Source: Candidatus Hermodarchaeota archaeon
GTDB lineage: Archaea > Asgardarchaeota > Hermodarchaeia > Hermodarchaeales > Hermodarchaeaceae
Direction: 5' to 3'
Length of the DNA: 23,534 bases
Assembly (NCBI GenBank): GCA_016840185.1
Contig: JAEOSV010000023.1
Location: forward strand, 1-23,534
Both the position numbers and the translations under genes were made by a program. A model generated the notes under the pieces. The model was given only the letters and a program-made list of their open reading frames with translations, ran no database searches and was not told the origin of the DNA. Positions 5,596 to 23,534 of this stretch are shown here, in pieces; the stretch's first letter is position 1, and the number at the start of each line of letters is the position of its first letter.

Positions 5596-5656
5596 TCCGG
5601 CACAAAGTTAAAGCTCACGAATGCACTCATTCAATGATGTGTCTGAGGTGTTAACT

Positions 5657-7615
5657 ATGCCGAATACCCATTATTGGTTGCTGGATACAACTTACAGTGA
5701 AGATGAACGTAAAATTCAGCAGACATTCCTACAAACACCCGCTCAGACACTCGTCAAAGGCGAAACAGATTTTTCTCCATATTTCTACGCAACACCTGCA
5801 AGTCTTGGTGAAGCGGTAAACCGAAAAGACCTGATGAAAAATGAGATAATATCTGTTGCACAGGTTCCGTCAACAAGCACTGTAAAAACTCAACGTGAAT
5901 GGGAACGAAAGATCAACCCAAGTCTCAGTTATGTCTATGATCAAGAACAACGATTTGGATGCCCACATAAACGAACCACTACGGGCTATAAGCTCGATTT
6001 ACACGTCCCCACAAAACAGCTCAAAGCCTTCAACTCACGTTTCTCTCAAATCGCGGACCAAGACCCTCTTAAGTTCGAATTCTTGAAAGAATTCTTTCGA
6101 TATACTATCCAACCGATCCCTCAAATGCCACGAGATCAACTGAAACTTGATCCAAAATTTGATGACTCAAAAATACTCCGAGGCATCATGTTATCACGCA
6201 TCGCAAATATCCCTTTTATGCGAGCCCTAACCAGTCGCAGTGTTTCTGAATGGATCCGCTCCATGCTTCACACAAGCTATCGCCGTTTAGGTATTCTCAT
6301 CCCTGATCCAGAAGAACTGAAGCTGGGGCACACACCCCATCGCGTTGAAGGAGCATTAACCATTGCTCCCACACCCGGTGTATACTATCACATGACGGTT
6401 TTAGACTTTGAATCTCTTTATCCAAGTCTCATTGACCAATACAACCTCTCATACGAAACCATGGACTGTGACCATGACGATTGCCACCCGAATTCGGTTC
6501 CCGATGCACCACATTATGTGTGCACACATCGACGAGGAATTTTCAGTACCCTCATCGGAGCACTCAAGGATCTCCGAATTTACTGGTTCAAACCCCAAAG
6601 CCGGCAAACAAAAATCTCCTCAGAAGAACGAAATCAAGCACAAGTCATCTCTAATCTTCTCAAATTCCTTCTTGTTAGTAGTGGTGGTGTCACAATACGT
6701 ATTCAAGGGCTTGCTAGTCCTCCGCTCGCAGAATCAATGATGGCCTACGGGCGATGGGCCCTGCGGACCAGTTGGGACTTTGCCATTGAGAAGGGAATGC
6801 GACCAATCTATGGAGACACTGATTCCCTATTTCTCGATCGCCCATCAAAACGAGATATTGAATGGTTAATTGCTAAGGTAAAAGACGAGTTGAAATTACA
6901 ACTCGCGGTAGATGTCGTCTATCCCATGTGTGTGTTCAGTTCCGCAAAAAAGGCATATTTTGGTATCTTTCCCGATGGAACACCCGATGTTAAAGGAATT
7001 ACTTTAGGAAAATCGAGTACACCCACACGTTTCCACCAAATCTTTTTAGAAGTTGTAAAACCCCTTGCTTCTGTCGACAACTCTGAAAAACTGGTCAAAG
7101 TAATTCCACGAATAATTAAAATCTTGCAGCATCAAATTACGCGCCTTCGTCGAAAAGAGTTTTCTGTCGAGGAACTGGAATATCGGGTCAAAGTTTGGAA
7201 AGCGGATAAGGAACGCGGGAAAGGAACTGCGCTAGCCCAACCCTACCAAGCTCTCCAACAATTAGAAGATTCGGGCGTTAAAGTGAAAAAACGCGATGAA
7301 GTTGGGTTTGTCAAAGTCACCCCATTTCGGTACGGTACTCGCACATTCACCGTCAAACCCACGCAAATGGCCACCCAGGAAGAAATTGACATTCCCGACT
7401 ATATTCGTAAACTCGAAATGGCTTTTGAACAAGTTTTACTCCCGATGAATATTGAGTTTCCAGGTCAACAATCCCGCGCCTTGGATTCCTACCTCTCGAA
7501 AACGGTATCCGCGCCATTTCAGGAATCGCCCCCTGAGCCTGGAAAACGTGAGCCCATTAAAAAACAGAAACGATTGATTGATTACACTAACGGTGAAGAT
7601 GAGGAGGCTTCATAG
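5657..7615 (+). CDS. Family B DNA polymerase lacking the 3'-5' exonuclease core
   Basis: The ATG at 5657 is preferred over one at 5621 because GAGGTG lies six bases upstream; the product is 652 aa, against roughly 770-900 for standard archaeal PolB. Residues 5-50 (YWLLDTTYSEDE, FSPYFYATP) match the family B N-terminal domain. The part that should hold the exonuclease with its D-x-E motif is reduced to a short linker ending EFFRYTIQPIPQMPR, and no Exo I, II or III motif is visible. The polymerase half has intact motif A (DFESLYPS, D250), a C/H cluster (C271, C276, C289), KKAY, and motif C (YGDTDS, 385-390). Motif B is altered: LLKFLLVSSGG replaces the usual K-x6-7-YG core, losing the conserved Asn and Tyr. 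The C-terminus carries QKRLIDYT (Q637), a PCNA-binding PIP-box-like motif. Probably a catalytically competent, non-proofreading repair or bypass polymerase; an inactivated PolB2-type role remains possible. Confidence 0.9.
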   Translation: MPNTHYWLLDTTYSEDERKIQQTFLQTPAQTLVKGETDFSPYFYATPASLGEAVNRKDLMKNEIISVAQVPSTSTVKTQREWERKINPSLSYVYDQEQRFGCPHKRTTTGYKLDLHVPTKQLKAFNSRFSQIADQDPLKFEFLKEFFRYTIQPIPQMPRDQLKLDPKFDDSKILRGIMLSRIANIPFMRALTSRSVSEWIRSMLHTSYRRLGILIPDPEELKLGHTPHRVEGALTIAPTPGVYYHMTVLDFESLYPSLIDQYNLSYETMDCDHDDCHPNSVPDAPHYVCTHRRGIFSTLIGALKDLRIYWFKPQSRQTKISSEERNQAQVISNLLKFLLVSSGGVTIRIQGLASPPLAESMMAYGRWALRTSWDFAIEKGMRPIYGDTDSLFLDRPSKRDIEWLIAKVKDELKLQLAVDVVYPMCVFSSAKKAYFGIFPDGTPDVKGITLGKSSTPTRFHQIFLEVVKPLASVDNSEKLVKVIPRIIKILQHQITRLRRKEFSVEELEYRVKVWKADKERGKGTALAQPYQALQQLEDSGVKVKKRDEVGFVKVTPFRYGTRTFTVKPTQMATQEEIDIPDYIRKLEMAFEQVLLPMNIEFPGQQSRALDSYLSKTVSAPFQESPPEPGKREPIKKQKRLIDYTNGEDEEAS

Positions 7616-13744: not shown

Positions 13745-14485
13745 ATGTTTGACTATGACGAATTAGCCCAGGAGTATGGCCAACACCGCCGCGTTCACCC
13801 GGAAGTCCTAAAGACACTTCTGACCACCAGCCAAGTCCACCATAAATCAAAGATCTTAGAGGTTGGGTGCGGAACCGGCAATTACATCACCGCTGTATTC
13901 GAAGCCACAGGCGCCACTTCATGGGGAATTGATCCCTCCCTTGAGATGCTAACAGAGGCACAACAACAATCCCCCAAAATCACCTTTGAACAAGGACATG
14001 CAGAATCTCTCCAATTTGAAGATAACTTCTTCGACTTAGTCTTTTCCGTGGATGTGATCCACCACCTCGAGCAAATTCCTCCATATTTTTCGGAAATCTT
14101 TCGCATCCTCAAACCTGGAGGACTCATTTGCACCGTAACCGACTCCGACGACATCATTCGCAACCGTCGCCCTCTTGCATTCTACTTTCCGGAAACCATA
14201 TCCGTTGACCTCCAACGATACCCATCAATCCTCCTTCTACGAAAACGCATGGAAGATACTGGATTCCGAAACATCCAACAAATCCGCGTCGAGTTTCCCC
14301 ATGAAATTACCGATATCCAAGCCTACAAAGACAAAGCCTATTCCTGCCTCCATCTCATATCCACTGACGCTTTCCAAATAGGCCTCGTTCGAATGGAAAC
14401 TGATCTAGCCCAAGGGGCAATCCCGGGAAATAGTCGTTATCTATTGCTTTTTGGGAAAAAGCCAGAACGTGTCGTGTTCCTATGA
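13745..14485 (+). CDS. Class I SAM-dependent methyltransferase
   Basis: A 246-aa cytoplasmic methyltransferase. SAM-binding motif I is ILEVGCGTGNY (37-47), the acidic residue after beta2 is D63 (WGIDPS), motif II/III lies around SLQFEDNFFDLVFSVDVIHHL and motif post-III is EIFRILKPGGLICTV. The C-terminal third (about 145-246) is variable, as expected for the substrate-binding part, and gives no clue to the acceptor. This is the methyltransferase type 11/25 group, in which small molecules are the usual acceptors. It is flanked by two paralogous serine hydrolases, but spacing on both sides (over 100 bases downstream) does not suggest a tight operon. A hairpin follows the stop codon. Confidence 0.9.
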   Translation: MFDYDELAQEYGQHRRVHPEVLKTLLTTSQVHHKSKILEVGCGTGNYITAVFEATGATSWGIDPSLEMLTEAQQQSPKITFEQGHAESLQFEDNFFDLVFSVDVIHHLEQIPPYFSEIFRILKPGGLICTVTDSDDIIRNRRPLAFYFPETISVDLQRYPSILLLRKRMEDTGFRNIQQIRVEFPHEITDIQAYKDKAYSCLHLISTDAFQIGLVRMETDLAQGAIPGNSRYLLLFGKKPERVVFL

Positions 14486-14502
14486 ACAATCTACCTCGTA
14501 CC

Positions 14503-14531
14503 CCTTTCCGAACCAGGTTTTTCGGAAAAGG
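14503..14531 (+). terminator. Hairpin after the methyltransferase gene
   Basis: CCTTTCCGAA (14503-14512) pairs with TTCGGAAAAGG (14521-14531) with one bulged base and an eight-base loop, 17 bases after the stop. GATTTTTG follows about 13 bases later. Stem and position fit a 3'-end element; the T-stretch is weak. Confidence 0.4.
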
Positions 14532-14583
14532 ACAGTTCTCTATGGATTTTTGAGTAATTTCATAACCAAATATAGTCTCTAAC

Positions 14584-14589
14584 TTTATA
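14584..14589 (+). promoter_or_regulatory. TATA box of serine hydrolase 2
   Basis: TTTATA lies about 40 bases before the ATG at 14626 and predicts transcription from about 14613. This excludes the TTG start at 14602 and leaves a leader with GGATGG as ribosome-binding sequence. Confidence 0.45.
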
Positions 14590-14625
14590 CCTTCCAACTC
14601 CTTGAAACATCTTGGATGGATGACA

Positions 14626-15816
14626 ATGAAAAGAATGCAGCCTTTGATCGTTGTGCTCCTTTCTCTTCTGCTGATTCCGTTATTTCTTCTTCCAAATAAT
14701 CAAGTCGTCTCAGCACAATCACGTGAACCTGATTATTGGCCAACAGATGATTGGGTGACGGCATCTCCGGAAGCGCATGGCCTAAATCCAGTGATGTTCC
14801 AACAGATGGAACAATACATCGAGAGTCAGCCCTGGGGCTTCGTCCTTCGATCTATTCTTGTTATCAAGAACGGATACCTCGTTTATGAAAATTATATGGG
14901 TGTTCCCGATCGTGAAACTCAGCGAAGTAATATCTATTCATGCACTAAAAGCGTGTCCTCCGCGCTCATTGGGATTGCCATCGACCAGGGCTATCTGAGC
15001 CTCAACGATCGACTCGTGGACATCTTTTCTCATCTCACCATTCAAAACATGGATAGTCGAAAAGCCGCGATTACCGTTGAAGACCTGCTCACAATGACCT
15101 CAGGGCTCCCTTGGGATGAATCAACATATCCGTATGGTAATCCGAACAATGACTGGAACAGGATGACAACCAGTCCCAATTGGGTTGAATTTGTCATTAA
15201 CCGACCCATGCAGTATTCACCTGGCTCCTATTGGGTTTACAACACCGGTGGGTCCCACCTTCTCTCCGCGATAATCAACCAGACAACCGGCGTATCCACA
15301 CAAGAGTTTGCAGAAACCAATTTGTTTGCGCCTCTTGGTATCACCAACTATTACTGGTCACGTGACCCCCAAGGCAACGTGAACGGGGGATCCTCTCTAC
15401 AACTACGACCACGTGATATGGCTAAATTTGGTTTTCTTTACCTCAATAATGGAACTTGGGATGGTCAGCAAATCCTGCCCACGTCATGGGTGACCGCTTC
15501 CTCAGCAACTCATGCCACAGTTGATAGTCAAACCCAGTATGGATATCAATGGTGGGTCCATCCGACAATCGATGCCTATGCGGCCCATGGCTATCTCAAT
15601 CAACATATCTTTGTGATTCCAAGCCAGGATATGATTGTTGTATTCACTGCCAGGAGTTCTGGTATGAATCCCATGCATCTCATCGAAGACTTCATTCTTC
15701 CTGCAGCAAGTGCACCGGGTGATTTACTTCCTCTGGCGATTGGCGTCGGTGCAGTCATCATTACGGCGATTGTTGCTGTTGGTTGCATTGTTCTAATTCG
15801 ACGAAGATATCCCTAG
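14626..15816 (+). CDS. Membrane-anchored serine hydrolase, beta-lactamase/PBP fold (copy 2)
   Basis: A 396-aa paralogue of the gene at 12023, with the same order: signal peptide (LIVVLLSLLLIPLFLL to VSAQS), conserved EPDYWPTDDW segment, serine hydrolase domain with S105-C-T-K108 and Y205-N206-T207, long conserved runs such as TIQNMDSRKAAIT and LRPRDMAKFGFLYLNNGTWDG, and a C-terminal membrane helix ending RRRYP. The third motif reads AAHGYLNQ, where copy 1 has SARGYLGQ, so substrate preference may differ. GGATGG is six bases before the ATG at 14626. The two copies bracket the methyltransferase and the small membrane protein, indicating an old local duplication that has diverged well beyond recent copying. 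Expected to act outside the cell membrane on esters, amides or D-amino-acid peptides; the substrate is unknown. Confidence 0.9.
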   Translation: MKRMQPLIVVLLSLLLIPLFLLPNNQVVSAQSREPDYWPTDDWVTASPEAHGLNPVMFQQMEQYIESQPWGFVLRSILVIKNGYLVYENYMGVPDRETQRSNIYSCTKSVSSALIGIAIDQGYLSLNDRLVDIFSHLTIQNMDSRKAAITVEDLLTMTSGLPWDESTYPYGNPNNDWNRMTTSPNWVEFVINRPMQYSPGSYWVYNTGGSHLLSAIINQTTGVSTQEFAETNLFAPLGITNYYWSRDPQGNVNGGSSLQLRPRDMAKFGFLYLNNGTWDGQQILPTSWVTASSATHATVDSQTQYGYQWWVHPTIDAYAAHGYLNQHIFVIPSQDMIVVFTARSSGMNPMHLIEDFILPAASAPGDLLPLAIGVGAVIITAIVAVGCIVLIRRRYP

Positions 15817-15891
15817 AAAATGTACTCGGTTCATTAATCCATCTGGTTTTTAGCCTACGCCGACAAATAATGCTATTCACGGTGTATTGTT

Positions 15892-16551
15892 ATGAGTGAA
15901 GATACCCTACAAAAAGAAATTGCGTGTCCAAAAGGTGGAAACCCCCGGGCAATCAAAGCCGTAATCCGCATAGAAAAACTCCCTTTCATGGAACGTACAA
16001 TGAGTGAAAAAATCGAACAAGAACACCGAAAACTAGCTGAAACTGATCCGGATGAATTCCAACGAGAAATCCATCGTCAACTAGCCGATGCCCAAGCGAA
16101 AATGCGGAACGAAGGATTGGTGAAACTCAAACTCACATGCCCAGATCATCCAGGTGATGGCGAATATCGCTTCTTCTTTGAAGATTTACCCAATTATGCA
16201 CCGGTCATCAAAGAAAACGTTCTCCGCTGTCTGAAATGTGGCGTACCCGTGTCCCTGGAAAGCACCAAAACTTCAGGAAAAAACAAAGTGCTTAACATTA
16301 AATGTCCAAACCATGGCACTGGACAACGAAAAATCTCATCCTCTATCCACGACATCATCATGCAAGCTGAAACGACTACAACAACACCCGCACCTTCGCA
16401 GAAACCAGAGACTCAACCCACACCTGTAAAACCAACCCCACAAGCTGACGGTGATGTGACAATCAGTTTCTGCTGGAATTGCGGGGCAAAAACCATTGAT
16501 GCCACCTCCCAATACTGTCACAAATGTGGAGTCCCCTTAATCCCTCCCTAG
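15892..16551 (+). CDS. Multi-zinc-ribbon protein (unknown function)
   Basis: A 219-aa soluble protein rich in zinc-ligand pairs: C12 near KGGNPR, C83/H86 (CPDH), C113/C116 (CLKCG), C138/H141 (CPNH), and at the C-terminus C194/C197 with C209/C212 (FCWNCG, YCHKCG), a typical zinc ribbon. A charged helical region (about 34-75) and a Thr/Pro/Gln-rich linker (about 160-187) separate the parts. I do not recognise the whole family; such proteins in archaea are often adaptors that bind protein or RNA. AAATAATG (15865-15872) lies at the distance expected for a leaderless or near-leaderless transcript from the ATG. The C-terminal ribbon resembles that of the membrane protein at 7704 in general type only. 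Confidence 0.75.
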   Translation: MSEDTLQKEIACPKGGNPRAIKAVIRIEKLPFMERTMSEKIEQEHRKLAETDPDEFQREIHRQLADAQAKMRNEGLVKLKLTCPDHPGDGEYRFFFEDLPNYAPVIKENVLRCLKCGVPVSLESTKTSGKNKVLNIKCPNHGTGQRKISSSIHDIIMQAETTTTTPAPSQKPETQPTPVKPTPQADGDVTISFCWNCGAKTIDATSQYCHKCGVPLIPP

Positions 16552-16554
16552 CCC

Positions 16555-16776
16555 GCCACGCCAAAAAACCTCCACAAAGTCCATTAAATTCTTGACGCCC
16601 TTTGCACCAATAAATTAACACCCACTGAATTCTGGATTAACCTCAAAGACCGACTCATCCACATTCACTACTTTGCAGTCCATAATGGCAAGGACGAACA
16701 CCTCGGCTATCTGGAAGTCACCGAAGACATCATGGATATCCGCGCGCTTGAAAGTGAGAAACGACTCCTCGACTAG
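16555..16776 (+). pseudogene. Remnant of a PAS-domain (DUF438-type) protein
   Basis: Read in one frame, 16555-16776 encodes PKNLHKVH, a stop (TAA, 16585-16587), then ILDALCTNKLTPTEFW, INLKDRLIHIHYFAVHNG, YLEVTEDIMDIRALE and GEKRLLD-like EKRLLD followed by a true stop (16774). This matches the end of the PAS domain found after hemerythrin-linked DUF438, where the segments read roughly PPKS-H-V, EFWI-L-GR-IHI-YFAV and LEVTQDIT-IR-LEGE-RLL. Everything upstream (start codon and most of the PAS fold) is gone, and the frame is interrupted, so it is a decayed fragment and not a gene. It starts directly after the stop of the zinc-ribbon gene, which suggests a deletion joined the two. The match is from memory of the family. 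Confidence 0.7.
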
Positions 16777-16857
16777 CCCTGAAACCTCTTTCCAACCCTG
16801 TTTCGTGGAGTATATCAAGCCCACTAAGAATACCCTTCCACCAGAGAGGTGGAACCC

Positions 16858-17265
16858 GTGCTCCTCGAACTCACCATCGGCATACTCTTACTCATCATCC
16901 TCGGACTCATCCTCTACAACATCTACCAAAAACGCATGATCAACATCCGCGTCCAACAACAAGTCCTACAAGAAAAAGACCGCATCCGCAAAGACGCCCT
17001 ATCAAGAAGCCGAGCCGTTCTGAAAGGCAAAATCGGTGAACAAATGGCACCCCTACTCGAAGCGTTTCCTTTCCAGCCCGCGGACGCCCGGTTTATTGGT
17101 GCACCCATCGACTACATCGTTTTTGATGGCTACAGCAAGAATAACCCCACAGAAATTGTACTCATCGACATCAAAACAGGCAACGCTCAACTTAGCACAA
17201 TCGAAAGACGCATCGCTAAACTCGTTCACGAGAAACGTGTCAGATGGATGACGATTCGCATCTAA
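16858..17265 (+). CDS. Membrane-anchored endonuclease distantly related to Holliday junction resolvase (COG4741-like)
   Basis: The GTG at 16858 follows GAGGTGG by six bases and is preferred over the GTG at 16849; it gives 135 aa. A hydrophobic N-terminal helix (3-21) is followed by a charged, probably coiled-coil stretch (30-52) and a PD-(D/E)xK-type nuclease core: E61 (KGKIGEQMAP), D85 (GAPIDYIVFDG) and D104-I-K106 (IVLIDIKTG), then RRIAKLVHEKRVRW. The layout matches archaeal proteins described as predicted secreted endonucleases related to archaeal Hjc. The usual E-x-K is D-x-K here. It ends five bases from the convergent radA gene. The substrate (extracellular DNA, or membrane-near recombination) is open. 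Codons end largely in C, as in radA. Confidence 0.88.
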   Translation: MLLELTIGILLLIILGLILYNIYQKRMINIRVQQQVLQEKDRIRKDALSRSRAVLKGKIGEQMAPLLEAFPFQPADARFIGAPIDYIVFDGYSKNNPTEIVLIDIKTGNAQLSTIERRIAKLVHEKRVRWMTIRI

Positions 17266-17270
17266 CATTC

Positions 17271-18209
17271 CTATGCATCTGCAATACCATTAGCCACAAT
17301 TGTGAAAAGCGCCTCTCCCTCTGGCAAATAAGGCGAATCAATGAGGGTAGCAATACGACGCTCACCCTTGCTCTTCCGGAGATAAATCCGCGTCTGAGCT
17401 GCGTGAGCCACGATATGGCCCCCCGTGGGTCTATCCGGCGCTCCGAAGAAGACGTCGGGTTGGGAGTGGACTTGGTTTGAGGTGACGACGGCGATGTTGC
17501 TGATTTCGGCGACGCGGAGGAGGTCGTGGAGGTGTTTGTTGAGTTTTTGTTGGCGTTCGGCGAGCATGCCGCGTCCGAGGTATTCGGCGCGGAAGTGGCC
17601 GATGAGGGAGTCGACGACGAGGAGGCGGACTTTTTCGAATTGGGGGTTGTCTTGGATTTGTTGGACGAGGAGCATTTGGTGGTCGCTGTTATAGGCGCGG
17701 CCGACGATGATGTTTTTGAGGGCTTGGTTGGGGGGGATGTTTTTGGCTTGGGCCATGTTGATGATGCGTTCGGGGCGGAAGGTGCCTTCGCTGTCGATAT
17801 AGGCGGCTTTGGCGTCGCATCCGCCTTGTTCTGCGGGGAGTTGGACGTTGACGGCGAGTTGGTGACAAATCTGGGTTTTACCGGAGCGGAATGCGCCGGC
17901 GAATTCGGTCATGCTACCGGTTTCTAAACCACCGCCGAGGAGGGCGTCGAGTTCCCGGCTGTTGGTGGTGATGCGTTCGATAGTTTGACGTTTCTTCCAG
18001 AGTTGGTCGGCAGTTTCGAGGCCGATACTAGCAAGGCGTTGGGCTGATTCGATGATCTTTTGGGCGGTGTTGGCACCGATGCCAGCGAGGCTGGTGAGTT
18101 CTTTAACGGAGGCGGCGGCGATTCCTTCGATGGTGCGGAAGCCGCATTCTTCGAGTTTTTGGGCGACGGTAGGTCCGACGCCATCGACTTTTTCAAGTTC
18201 TGAGGGCAT
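17271..18209 (-). CDS. radA: DNA repair and recombination protein RadA
   Basis: The archaeal RecA/Rad51 homologue that forms filaments on single-stranded DNA and drives strand exchange. 312 aa, a little short of the usual 320-350. Residues 1-65 form the helix-hairpin-helix domain (KVDGVGPTVAQKLEE, LAGIGANTAQKIIE). The Walker A motif is GAFRSGKTQ (105-113), where most archaeal RadA have GEFGSGKTQ; the lysine and threonine are kept. Walker B is RLLVVDS (D200), followed by the IGHFRAEYLGRGMLAERQQKLN signature and the L2-region GAPDRPTGGHIVAHA. GGAAGGA precedes the ATG. Codons are strongly C-ending from the start to about 17440 and then return to the window's ordinary usage in the last 55 codons. 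The gene has a long structured leader. Confidence 0.97.
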   Translation of the reverse strand: MPSELEKVDGVGPTVAQKLEECGFRTIEGIAAASVKELTSLAGIGANTAQKIIESAQRLASIGLETADQLWKKRQTIERITTNSRELDALLGGGLETGSMTEFAGAFRSGKTQICHQLAVNVQLPAEQGGCDAKAAYIDSEGTFRPERIINMAQAKNIPPNQALKNIIVGRAYNSDHQMLLVQQIQDNPQFEKVRLLVVDSLIGHFRAEYLGRGMLAERQQKLNKHLHDLLRVAEISNIAVVTSNQVHSQPDVFFGAPDRPTGGHIVAHAAQTRIYLRKSKGERRIATLIDSPYLPEGEALFTIVANGIADA

Positions 18210-20529: not shown

Positions 20530-20602
20530 ATGAGGACACATTTCGCCTTCCAAGTACCGGAATAACAAGGGATTTAAGGAATAAGCTTCACCTTTGACCA
20601 GT

Positions 20603-20653: not shown

Positions 20654-22495
20654 TTGGAGCGAAAACGCATTTTCCAATTACTTGCAGTTCTCCTCTTTGT
20701 AGGCATGATGCCTATCTGGTTCTATCCTGCTGGTCAGCTTCCCTCTGTTGCTGCTCAGGCATGGGACCCAACTGGTCCATACGCTGACAGAGTCATCTTC
20801 CATGTTATTACTGGCCAAGATGTCCAAGTCGCTGCTCTTATTCAAGGCGACATTGACAACCTTGCTGATAACGTAGAAGCTGCCTACATTGAAGAATTGC
20901 AAGCTAATCCAAACATTGAAGTAACCCAAACTGAACGACTCGGTTTCGGTTTCATGGCCATCAACTGTATGCGCTATCCTTACTCGATTCCTGCGTTCCG
21001 ACGTGCAATGGCTTATGCAGCTGACAAGCACGAAGTCGCCACCATCATGTGGGGTGGCCTTGGCTTCGCCCTTGACACCTGTGTACCCGCGTCTGTTGGT
21101 GTGTGGCACAATAACGCCACTTCTCCCAGTTACAAGGAGCCCAACGTTGCGCTAGCACAAGCAGAATTAACTGCTGCAGGATTCTATGATGCCAACGGTG
21201 ACGGATACTTCGACGATCCGAACGGTGAACCTTTCACCTTCCGTCCGATGTATTCCATCGAAGCTCCCCAATGGGGTGCAGCCATGACCTCCCAGCAAGT
21301 TTACTGGGATCAGGCTGGTATCAGTGTAGAACCGATGCCGATCTCCTTCAACACCCTACTGGACATCGTTTATACGATTCCACGTAACTACGACGGTGCT
21401 AACTTCGCCTACGGTCTTAGCCCCAACCCACTTATCCTTGAGAACTGGATGTCCCAATACATCGCAGATCCTGAAGGTAACATGTTGAACTGGGCTAACG
21501 ACACCTACGACTACTGGGTAGATATCATGCTCACCTCCTCAGACTATGATGAGGTCCTTGACGCATCATATGCTGCTCAGCAAGTTTTCGTCGAGAACGT
21601 ACCCATGCTTGTCTGGTACAGCAACTGGGAAGTCAACGCCTACCGCTCTGACAAGTGGGAGGACTTTATCATTATTCCTGGTTGGGGTATTGCAGGCATG
21701 AACCGCTGGGTTCCCCAGACTGTCAAACTTAGAGAAGGACAGCCTGAACGTGACCCAAGCACAGGTACTGGTGGTACATTCAACACTCTGATTGGCTCCG
21801 CCATGGACTCACAGAACCCGTTGACCTCCACCAGCGTTTATGGCAACTACCCACTCTCTCAAGTCTACTCCAGCCTTGCTGGTCTCAATGATCCGAACCA
21901 CGAACCGTCAATGGACAGTAACGGACTCGCCTATCACTGGGAGATCACCGAACTAACTGACGGTCTACAATTCGACTTTACGCTGTGGGGCGCAGACGAT
22001 GATCACCCAGCTGCCTATTGGCACGACATGGGTGGTAGTTACGATGGTCGTGTGACGGCACATGATGTTGCCTTCAGCTACAACTACATCGTCAACTATT
22101 CCATTCCAACATACGTCACTGCGATTCCCTACTTCAACTCCTGTGTTGCCGTAGATGACTTCCACGTTCGGATGACCACCAATGGTAAGAGCTACTGGGC
22201 CTTTGATCAGCTACGTGGTTGGGATACTATTCCAGAGCACATCTGGTCTGGTATCGTCAGCCCTGTAACCTTCTCAAACCCTGAGCCCATTGGTAGTGGT
22301 CCATTCAAGTGGTACCGACGAATTGAAGGCGAATACGTCGAGTTGGAATTCTGGGAAAACTATCATCGTGGTGTGGAAGGTCACGCCGCTGGTGAAACAG
22401 CACCAGTCAGCTATCTCCCAATCTACATTGCTGTAGGTGTGCTAGTAATTGTCGTGGTCCTCCTCGGCAGCTTCTGGTATCTACGCAAGAAGTAG
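20654..22495 (+). CDS. ABC-type family 5 (peptide/nickel class) substrate-binding protein, circularly permuted, membrane-anchored
   Basis: The frame runs from a TTG at 20594; I prefer the TTG at 20654 (613 aa), which leaves a compact signal peptide (ERKRIFQLLAVLLFVGMMP to VAAQA), has GAGG 12 bases upstream and avoids coding through a perfect hairpin. After the signal, the protein starts with what is normally the second half of an SBP_bac_5 protein: YADRVIFHVI, ALIQGDIDNLADNV, IPAFRRAMAYAADK, and a Ca-loop-like DANGDGYFDD (about 43-365). The usual first half then follows: GGTFNTLIGSAMDSQNPL, LAYHWEITELTDGLQF, VTAHDVAFSYNYI, PIGSGPFKWYRR and WENYHRG (about 373-572). A C-terminal helix (588-610) ends in RKK. 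Expected to bind oligopeptides or similar outside the cell for an ABC importer not in this window. Codon use suggests high expression. Confidence 0.9.
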   Translation: MERKRIFQLLAVLLFVGMMPIWFYPAGQLPSVAAQAWDPTGPYADRVIFHVITGQDVQVAALIQGDIDNLADNVEAAYIEELQANPNIEVTQTERLGFGFMAINCMRYPYSIPAFRRAMAYAADKHEVATIMWGGLGFALDTCVPASVGVWHNNATSPSYKEPNVALAQAELTAAGFYDANGDGYFDDPNGEPFTFRPMYSIEAPQWGAAMTSQQVYWDQAGISVEPMPISFNTLLDIVYTIPRNYDGANFAYGLSPNPLILENWMSQYIADPEGNMLNWANDTYDYWVDIMLTSSDYDEVLDASYAAQQVFVENVPMLVWYSNWEVNAYRSDKWEDFIIIPGWGIAGMNRWVPQTVKLREGQPERDPSTGTGGTFNTLIGSAMDSQNPLTSTSVYGNYPLSQVYSSLAGLNDPNHEPSMDSNGLAYHWEITELTDGLQFDFTLWGADDDHPAAYWHDMGGSYDGRVTAHDVAFSYNYIVNYSIPTYVTAIPYFNSCVAVDDFHVRMTTNGKSYWAFDQLRGWDTIPEHIWSGIVSPVTFSNPEPIGSGPFKWYRRIEGEYVELEFWENYHRGVEGHAAGETAPVSYLPIYIAVGVLVIVVVLLGSFWYLRKK

Positions 22496-22662: not shown

Positions 22663-23534
22663 ATGGACAACGGAGAAACTCCTTCTACACCAATCCCCAC
22701 ATCAGAAGATGAAGATAGGCAAGTGCACCTCACCTGGCGGATGCGAATAACCTACTTGTATGGCCCAATTCTCGCCATGATTTTCTCTCTCTTCATCACT
22801 TACATGGTCGTTCTTTCGAATCCCTTTCTTGATTTTGGAATTTTTCCTCCCATCACCGATCCCTATGAAACCCTTATCATTCTTCTTGTAATTGGGGTGG
22901 TTGGTGGAGTGGCTACGTTTGCAACCTTCATGGTCTTTCAACGTGGGAGTGAAACCCTGCATCGAGTCATCATTGCAGCTTTTGTATCTCCGCTTTTCTT
23001 CATTCTCACCGTTTTCCTAGGACAAGCAATTTTCCTCGTGTTACTCTTTCAAGGGCTAACAAACTTCCACCTATCCATGATCGCCTTCGCATCCATCATG
23101 TTTTCCGCCTTCTCCCTGGTATTCATTTTCACCGATGCCCTAGGTGTAACAGGCCGCAACGTCTTGTTCACCTTATACGGAATCGTCCTCGGAGTCTTCA
23201 TCGCGACGAACTTTTCTTGGGTCATATCGATGACGCTCTTAATCATCCTCGCTGTACAGGACATGATATTTGCGATGAAACTGGGACCATCTATTGTTGA
23301 TGCTGATCCCCAACGACATGCCCGCTCCGCTTTTACCTTCGTTATGGGTCCATTGATTATCGGAGTGGGAGACCTCATTGTCTATGCTGCCTTGGTTGCC
23401 TATGCTCTTCGTTACGTTGGCTGGACCTTCGCTGGGTTGACCTTCATTGCGGTCCTCATTGGGTGTCTCATCAATACCCAGATTGTCGCACGTTATCCCA
23501 ATCAGGTTATTCCTGGATTACCCATCCCCCTAAT
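22663..23534 (+). CDS. Presenilin-like (A22 family) intramembrane aspartyl protease, cut by the right edge
   Basis: The ATG at 22663 opens a frame of 290 codons that runs off the window. A short acidic N-terminus (1-20) is followed by about nine hydrophobic helices. The three signatures of presenilin/signal-peptide-peptidase proteases are in order: the first catalytic Asp in LAVQDMIFA (D200; usually Y-D), GVGD (D237, in LIIGVGDLIVYAAL), and PGLP (284-287, in place of the usual PAL), just before the edge. Archaeal members of this group are COG3389-type. It should cleave membrane-spanning segments, for example signal-peptide remnants. The gene is nearly complete; only the last helix and tail are missing. 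A TATA box at 22632 suggests a leaderless mRNA. It lies after a terminator, so it is its own unit. Confidence 0.88.
   Translation, partial: MDNGETPSTPIPTSEDEDRQVHLTWRMRITYLYGPILAMIFSLFITYMVVLSNPFLDFGIFPPITDPYETLIILLVIGVVGGVATFATFMVFQRGSETLHRVIIAAFVSPLFFILTVFLGQAIFLVLLFQGLTNFHLSMIAFASIMFSAFSLVFIFTDALGVTGRNVLFTLYGIVLGVFIATNFSWVISMTLLIILAVQDMIFAMKLGPSIVDADPQRHARSAFTFVMGPLIIGVGDLIVYAALVAYALRYVGWTFAGLTFIAVLIGCLINTQIVARYPNQVIPGLPIPL

Follow-up and report, generated by a model that had tools for sequence, protein, structure and literature searches.

The gene described here lies near the end of a stretch of 23,534 nucleotides from Candidatus Hermodarchaeota archaeon (assembly GCA_016840185.1, contig JAEOSV010000023.1, positions 1 to 23,534 of the forward strand); this whole stretch is called the window below. 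It is a single unbroken open reading frame (ORF) on the plus strand, running from 20594 to a stop codon that ends at 22495, and it encodes a relative of the family-5 (Opp/Dpp type) solute-binding proteins (SBPs) in which the two halves of the ordinary chain stand in swapped order. Two starts are available: TTG at 20594, giving 633 amino acids (aa), and an in-frame TTG at 20654, giving 613 aa. The equivalent of the latter (MERK/LERK) is used by some relatives, and the equivalent of the former by protein P0001. The chain consists of the part corresponding to the ordinary C-terminal half (C-half), a linker, the ordinary N-terminal half (N-half) and an anchor, and our computations predict that it folds as an ordinary two-lobed binding protein (Table 1). 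The hydrophobic N-terminus and the C-terminal helix, both visible in the sequence and in the AlphaFold2 (AF2) model, would be compatible with a location in the cell envelope.

Table 1. Parts of the permuted SBP gene in the window, and coordinates of long fused or repeated SBP genes at other loci
Feature	Locus	Coordinates	Strand	Basis or remark
Hydrophobic N-terminus, putative export signal	window	20654..20761	+	sequence and AF2 helix at residues 4-23 (613-aa form)
C-half of the SBP fold, first in the chain (ordinary residues ~190 to C-terminus)	window	20762..21718	+	Pfam profile 141-328; model residues 54-361 fit 1xoc 224-520, and 38-360 fit 1zty 186-528
Junction of ordinary C-terminal tail and ordinary mature N-terminus (TVKLREGQPERDPSTGT)	window	21719..21769	+	conserved in homologue alignment
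N-half of the SBP fold, second in the chain (ordinary N-terminus to NPxYW point)	window	21770..22372	+	Pfam profile 6-141
C-terminal transmembrane anchor, then RKK	window	22415..22492	+	AF2 helix at residues 588-612 (613-aa form)
SBP and Peptidase_S8 ORF	L049	3876-11435	-	
SBP and Peptidase_S8 ORF	L050	2930-10720	-	
SBP and Peptidase_S8 ORF	L051	4184-11113	-	
SBP and Peptidase_S8 ORF	L052	2798-10558	-	
SBP and Peptidase_S8 ORF	L053	4-4962	-	stops at contig edge
Four ordinary SBP copies	L100	2625-10967	+	2781 aa
Two ordinary SBP copies	L099	2575-13440	-	
Two ordinary SBP copies	L103	1488-6941	+	

The initial annotation had described this gene as a circular permutation of the family-5 SBP; the observation is confirmed and the reading built on it supported. 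Against the Pfam profile PF00496 (SBP_bac_5), which has a gathering score of 32.4 bits, the whole protein scored 139.8 bits (total E 1.6e-40) through two matches in one frame whose order is reversed: residues 57-260 match profile positions 141-328, and the downstream part matches positions 6-141. Scored separately, the first part reached 104.7 bits and the second 43.0 bits (E 4.1e-11). The split is complementary, as the first part begins at profile position 141 and the second stops at 141 without overlap, as expected of a circular permutation. Searches of NCBIfam and of PDB sequences mapped the first part onto later residues of ordinary proteins, and the PDB search mapped the second part onto early ones. 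As a control, the two half-profiles were applied to a wider set, in which they assigned the N-C order to 196 distinct ordinary proteins and the C-N order to 155 distinct proteins.

The structural comparison agreed with the profiles. The AF2 model of the protein (predicted local distance difference test (pLDDT) 89.8, predicted TM-score (pTM) 0.81) has the two-lobed fold of cluster C SBPs, and its two pieces overlay complementary stretches of ordinary family-5 proteins in swapped order. In AppA (1xoc), the first part fits residues 224-520, while a separate model of the N-half (window 21749-22372, pTM 0.87) fits 1xoc 17-210, 1zty 1-187 and 1vr5 26-211, ranges that give the first and last aligned residue only; the splits are complementary on other chains too. 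When the model was compared with known structures, 48 of the 50 chains listed began at chain residue 172 or later, and the exceptions to a clean split among the chains listed were 3drj (from residue 64), 3drg (from residue 18) and 2o7i (reaching model residue 433). The boundaries proposed in the initial annotation, residues 43-365 and 373-572, agree with the model-based ones, 37-363 and ~366-573 (613-aa form). The gene in the window is a natural circular permutation: complementary parts of one family, swapped, in a single intact frame. The N-to-C order of PF00496 members is not kept, and because of this reversed order we place the protein in a permuted subfamily that shares its descent with SBP_bac_5, and not among the ordinary members.

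An assembly join, a frameshift or a decaying duplicate could mimic such an arrangement. A search of 5.8 billion proteins returned 46 close homologues (48-90% identity, fragments included), with Promethearchaeota and Hodarchaeota among their named sources, and eight distant ones, all in the ordinary order. With the window protein, 39 homologues (47-90% identity) align over the whole SBP part and share the same order and the same junction region. The C-terminal anchor is kept across this alignment, with extensions after it in some rows, and the very N-terminus is absent from several rows. As the homologues share order and junction, we reject an artefact of this kind, whose probability we regard as practically nil; moreover, the frame is intact, the permuted order recurs in 155 distinct sequences, and nothing was found in favour of an artefact.

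We refer to the C-N order as type A. Within the phylum of G001, a genome represented by a contig labelled Hermodarchaeota, 75 of 227 Asgard genomes gave a match with an E value no higher than 1e-20. Among the best 150 matches listed, 129, in 48 of the 227 genomes, cross the seam (from profile position 47 or earlier through 531 or later, of 615); as the genome matches are the best ones only, these counts do not give a share of permuted proteins per genome. Seam-crossing matches indicate permuted proteins, since a protein in ordinary order cannot give them. In the fetched loci that contain both halves the C-half always came first, except in one differently cut gene in G001. Furthermore, three protein searches, the last two represented by their best 120 matches each, listed 289 proteins: 154 N-C, 101 C-N (type A), 22 c2-N-c1 (type B, see below) and 12 partial or split. 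The wider searches started from a diverse permuted alignment and from the second type, and their proteins were classified by two half-profiles. Outside Asgard, the named sources of type A include a Nitrososphaerota record (P0185) and a Bathyarchaeota record (P0200), and a Thermoprotei record (P0220, marked partial) contains the C-half only. The C-N proteins P0114, P0144 and their kin, which have no C-terminal anchor, may be bacterial.

Database proteins and fetched loci together amount to 155 distinct type A sequences, 29 of type B, 196 ordinary ones and eight with tandem copies (171, 31, 198 and eight rows before de-duplication), a ratio that gives no frequencies because the sample was gathered from permuted queries (two type A, one type B) and from genome loci. 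Seven locus rows (fragments, truncated tandems and split matches) and the database proteins that fit no class were set aside from these counts. The C-N order is thus that of a large archaeal family, old and widespread, so that the rearrangement reaches beyond the one gene considered in the initial annotation. At two loci from two genomes, L129 (record around 17620-17624) and L060 (around 1782-1788), two permuted SBP genes are adjacent in the same frame with one or two stop codons between them.

The fold has also been permuted in a second, different way. In type B the order is c2-N-c1, with the cut ~150 positions into the C-half, and its 29 distinct sequences come from Asgard and Thermoproteota (among them P0055, Baldrarchaeia; P0062, Thermoprotei; P0066, Thermoproteota; P0084, Desulfurococcaceae). 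Examples are L062 (7105-8628, minus strand), L127 (record 37179-39095, minus strand), L131 (record 16092-17807, plus strand), L132, L133 and the proteins P0055-P0067. Type B, like type A, is a natural permutation of this fold whose new ends are hydrophobic, but it is cut at another point, is placed elsewhere in the tree and does not form one clade. A tree of 123 rows calls for six changes to account for type B, of which starred branches force three or more. A single origin of type B was rejected by the approximately unbiased test on 43 hand-picked rows under LG+G4 (p 5.9e-11, a value that is flattering, since the type B group was named after the 123-row tree had been viewed).

How the C-N order of type A arose can be read in part from the junction. 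There the ordinary tail (compare NPWTWLSVYK in the ordinary protein P0068) leads straight into the ordinary mature N-terminus (GGTL...). By crude hydropathy, none of the C-to-N junctions in 171 type A and 31 type B rows (202 in all, with duplicates counted) showed a membrane-like segment; the same measure found one after the last SBP part in 131 of the 155 distinct type A proteins and a hydrophobic stretch before the first SBP part in 137 of them. The clean junction and the hydrophobic ends at the new termini fit duplication and trimming of an anchored ancestor. In such an origin, the gene of an ordinary anchored SBP would have been duplicated in tandem and in frame, the product would have lost the N-half at its front and the C-half at its rear, and the internal anchor and second signal would have been deleted, so that the old signal and anchor would end up at the new termini. 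Permutation by duplication is described in PMC3320104. The initial annotation had proposed tandem duplication followed by loss of the outer halves; the junction fits this proposed route.

It had also suggested looking for double-length precursors in related genomes, and this check came out in its favour only in part. Chains of two to four SBP copies occur in other Asgard genomes (Table 1), so that double and longer SBP chains do exist in the phylum. However, every copy in them reads N-C and they branch away from type A; as direct precursors of type A they were rejected on the 123-row tree, where they branch elsewhere. A double-length precursor in the lineage of type A itself was not found among the classified rows. 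This absence, together with the distance of the existing tandems from type A in the tree, speaks against duplication as the origin, and the former would also be expected if two half-genes, possibly of different SBP paralogues, had been separated and then rejoined in the other order.

The trees bear on this alternative in both directions. With both halves in the 123-row tree, type A is one branch with a support of 99 in the Shimodaira-Hasegawa-like approximate likelihood ratio test (SH-aLRT), and it is again one branch in each of the separate half trees, with a support of 40 for the N-half and 89 for the C-half. The low value for the N-half would suit a fission and fusion of half-genes, and so would the hand-picked tree of 43 rows, in which type A needs two changes and forms one clade in 38% of 200 bootstrap trees; that tree left P0114/P0144 and P0196 unresolved, and a single origin of type A is not strong there. 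Rows were thinned by k-mer similarity with limits that differed per class. For the 123-row tree the ordinary database rows were halved and the type A rows were hand-picked, and for the half trees A_P0253 and B_L076, which have long branches, were removed together with further ordinary rows. Against fission and fusion stand the one branch in the larger tree and in both half trees, and the location of the signal and the anchor, which both sit at the new termini and are both absent from the junction, as expected of a trimmed anchored tandem. We therefore consider a rejoining of half-genes unlikely and prefer duplication and trimming.

The permuted SBP also occurs as part of longer chains. Nine permuted-SBP ORFs of more than 1000 aa were scanned. 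In five of them (one each in L049-L053, 1653-2597 aa) the SBP is followed by a Peptidase_S8 (subtilase) domain, and two of these five also match PKD/Ig-like domains close to the C-terminus. The remaining four (1084-1349 aa; L050, L054 and L055) are without Peptidase_S8, two of them with Ig-like or PKD-like matches. A C-terminal zinc ribbon is present in some close relatives of the window protein.

In the window, the permuted SBP gene is followed by a gene for a presenilin-like membrane protein (22663-23532, leaving the window; PF01080, E 3.1e-5, below the Pfam cut-off), which is conserved at 47-67% identity in L001, L002, L012, L064 and L065. Elsewhere in the window, 5621-7612 on the plus strand encodes a family B DNA polymerase of 664 aa (PF00136) with no exonuclease-domain match at E 0.001, and two genes for serine hydrolase-like proteins of the beta-lactamase family (PF00144; 12023-13234 and 14602-15813, both on the plus strand) have a methyltransferase gene between them.

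We then considered the role of the permuted proteins. Permease genes stand beside permuted genes in 13 cases among 28 mapped loci, a count that is no frequency because the loci were partly picked for nearby permeases. Permeases adjoin eight type A loci (L066, L125, L127 and L134-L138), and permeases with OppD/F-type ATPases adjoin five type B genes (L062, L127 and L131-L133); in four of the type B loci (L131, L132, L133 and L062) the order of SBP, two permeases and two ATPases is complete. In addition, the genomes G002, G069, G070 and G071 encode BPD_transp_1 permeases and oligo_HPY ATPases, while their PF00496 matches are either interrupted at the point of permutation or fragmentary. The permuted proteins are thus the only family-5 receptors seen for the Opp importers of these four genomes, subject to genome completeness. 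In a published study of Hermodarchaeota (PMC8163825), the presence of genes for peptidases and oligopeptide transporters is taken as a sign that peptides are used. From the permuted genes beside permeases, the genomes with Opp importers in which only permuted or fragmentary family-5 proteins were seen, and this published view of peptide use, the likeliest role, judged by fold and neighbourhood, is that of a membrane-anchored receptor of an Opp-type ATP-binding cassette (ABC) importer. The N-terminal signal would export the protein and the C-terminal helix would hold it on the outer face of the membrane, where the lobes would close on a small solute (a peptide, an oligosaccharide or another) and pass it to the importer; in the subfamily of the window protein, the importer would be encoded elsewhere in the genome. 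Conserved residues around one ligand-site motif pointed to no clear ligand. In several Opp clusters the second permease ORF has ~700 aa, about twice the first (L119, 6070-8190; L120, 2992-5157; L121, record 14451-16562; L122, record 15771-17873).

Several observations weigh against a receptor role. No permease was found in the window, where 21 of the 27 ORFs of at least 120 aa were scanned and the other six overlap those. A further 15 type A genes or gene fragments, spread over nine loci, also had no permease tagged beside them, and L059, L064, L065 and L130, which represent the window's closest relatives, are among these loci; this tagging took in eight of the 11 matches of G066 and seven of the eight of G069, and left out G053 (L057 and L058). 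Finally, an ordinary SBP could be missing from the assemblies of G002 and G069-G071 through incompleteness. It is therefore conceivable that the subfamily of the window protein is no longer a transport receptor and acts as a surface binder for sensing, adhesion or scavenging, uncoupled from an importer. That no permease neighbour was found in the window or tagged beside the closest relatives would fit this, as would the conserved presenilin-like protein in their place, the zinc-ribbon domains of some close relatives and, among more distant permuted SBPs, the fusions to subtilase or Ig-like domains. On the other hand, G069-G071 show only permuted or fragmentary family-5 proteins and yet carry Opp-type permease and ATPase genes, other type A clades adjoin permeases, and one importer can take several SBPs: Pseudomonas DppBCDF works with DppA1-A5 (PMC4206461). 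We thus regard a loss of the transport role as rather unlikely. Taken as a whole, a circularly permuted family-5 SBP of an Asgard archaeon that serves as an anchored receptor and arose by duplication is the best explanation of the data, and in our judgement a probable one.

SBPs belong to the protein families that have been studied most thoroughly, and they serve as a standard scaffold when biosensors are engineered. The proteins described here are a permuted subfamily of this well-known family, a new variant that is old and widespread and has a second type of permutation beside it. Since the permuted family is old and large, annotation with profiles in the ordinary direction splits or misreads such proteins, and archaeal counts of transport receptors may be affected. 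More doubtful, though possible, is a wider view in which nature has permuted the family-5 fold several times, with at least two different cut points. In this view, the permuted form would have taken over entirely from the ordinary Opp receptor in parts of Asgard, and would also serve as a general surface module in fusions with subtilases and zinc ribbons. If this were true, the advantage of the permuted form could be that the tether no longer sits at the chain end but at the hinge of the two lobes, so that the loaded receptor would dock differently on the permease. The natural series of ordinary, type A, type B and tandem proteins makes the effects of chain order and anchor position on this docking testable, and the permuted SBPs are a case for asking how frequent permutation by duplication is.

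Searches of open-access PubMed Central (PMC) full text directed at this question brought up no account of a solute-binding protein permuted in nature; apart from the papers named below, those listed were judged by their titles and the opening of their abstracts. In a survey of the SBP repertoires of model bacteria (PMC9602780) the string 'permut' occurs nowhere in the text, and in PMC2588589 the matching terms sit in a domain table and the title of a reference. Among the best 60 of 106 type A profile matches to PDB sequences, none had its best stretch across the seam. Compared with SBP_bac_5 or cluster C SBPs (AppA, 1xoc; DppA, 1dpp; TM1223, 1vr5; NikA), the window protein has the C-half before the N-half, and both ends of its chain are at the NPxYW crossing strand. 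The binding proteins that were permuted in the laboratory for biosensors show that permutation of a binding protein is feasible, but they are engineered and not natural; PMC3454389, which cites Okada 2009, names permutation of ligand-binding domains as an engineering technique. The textbook case of natural circular permutation is swaposin and saposin: in PMC3320104, permutation by duplication is the proposed origin, as it is here, whereas fold and function are unrelated to those of the SBPs.
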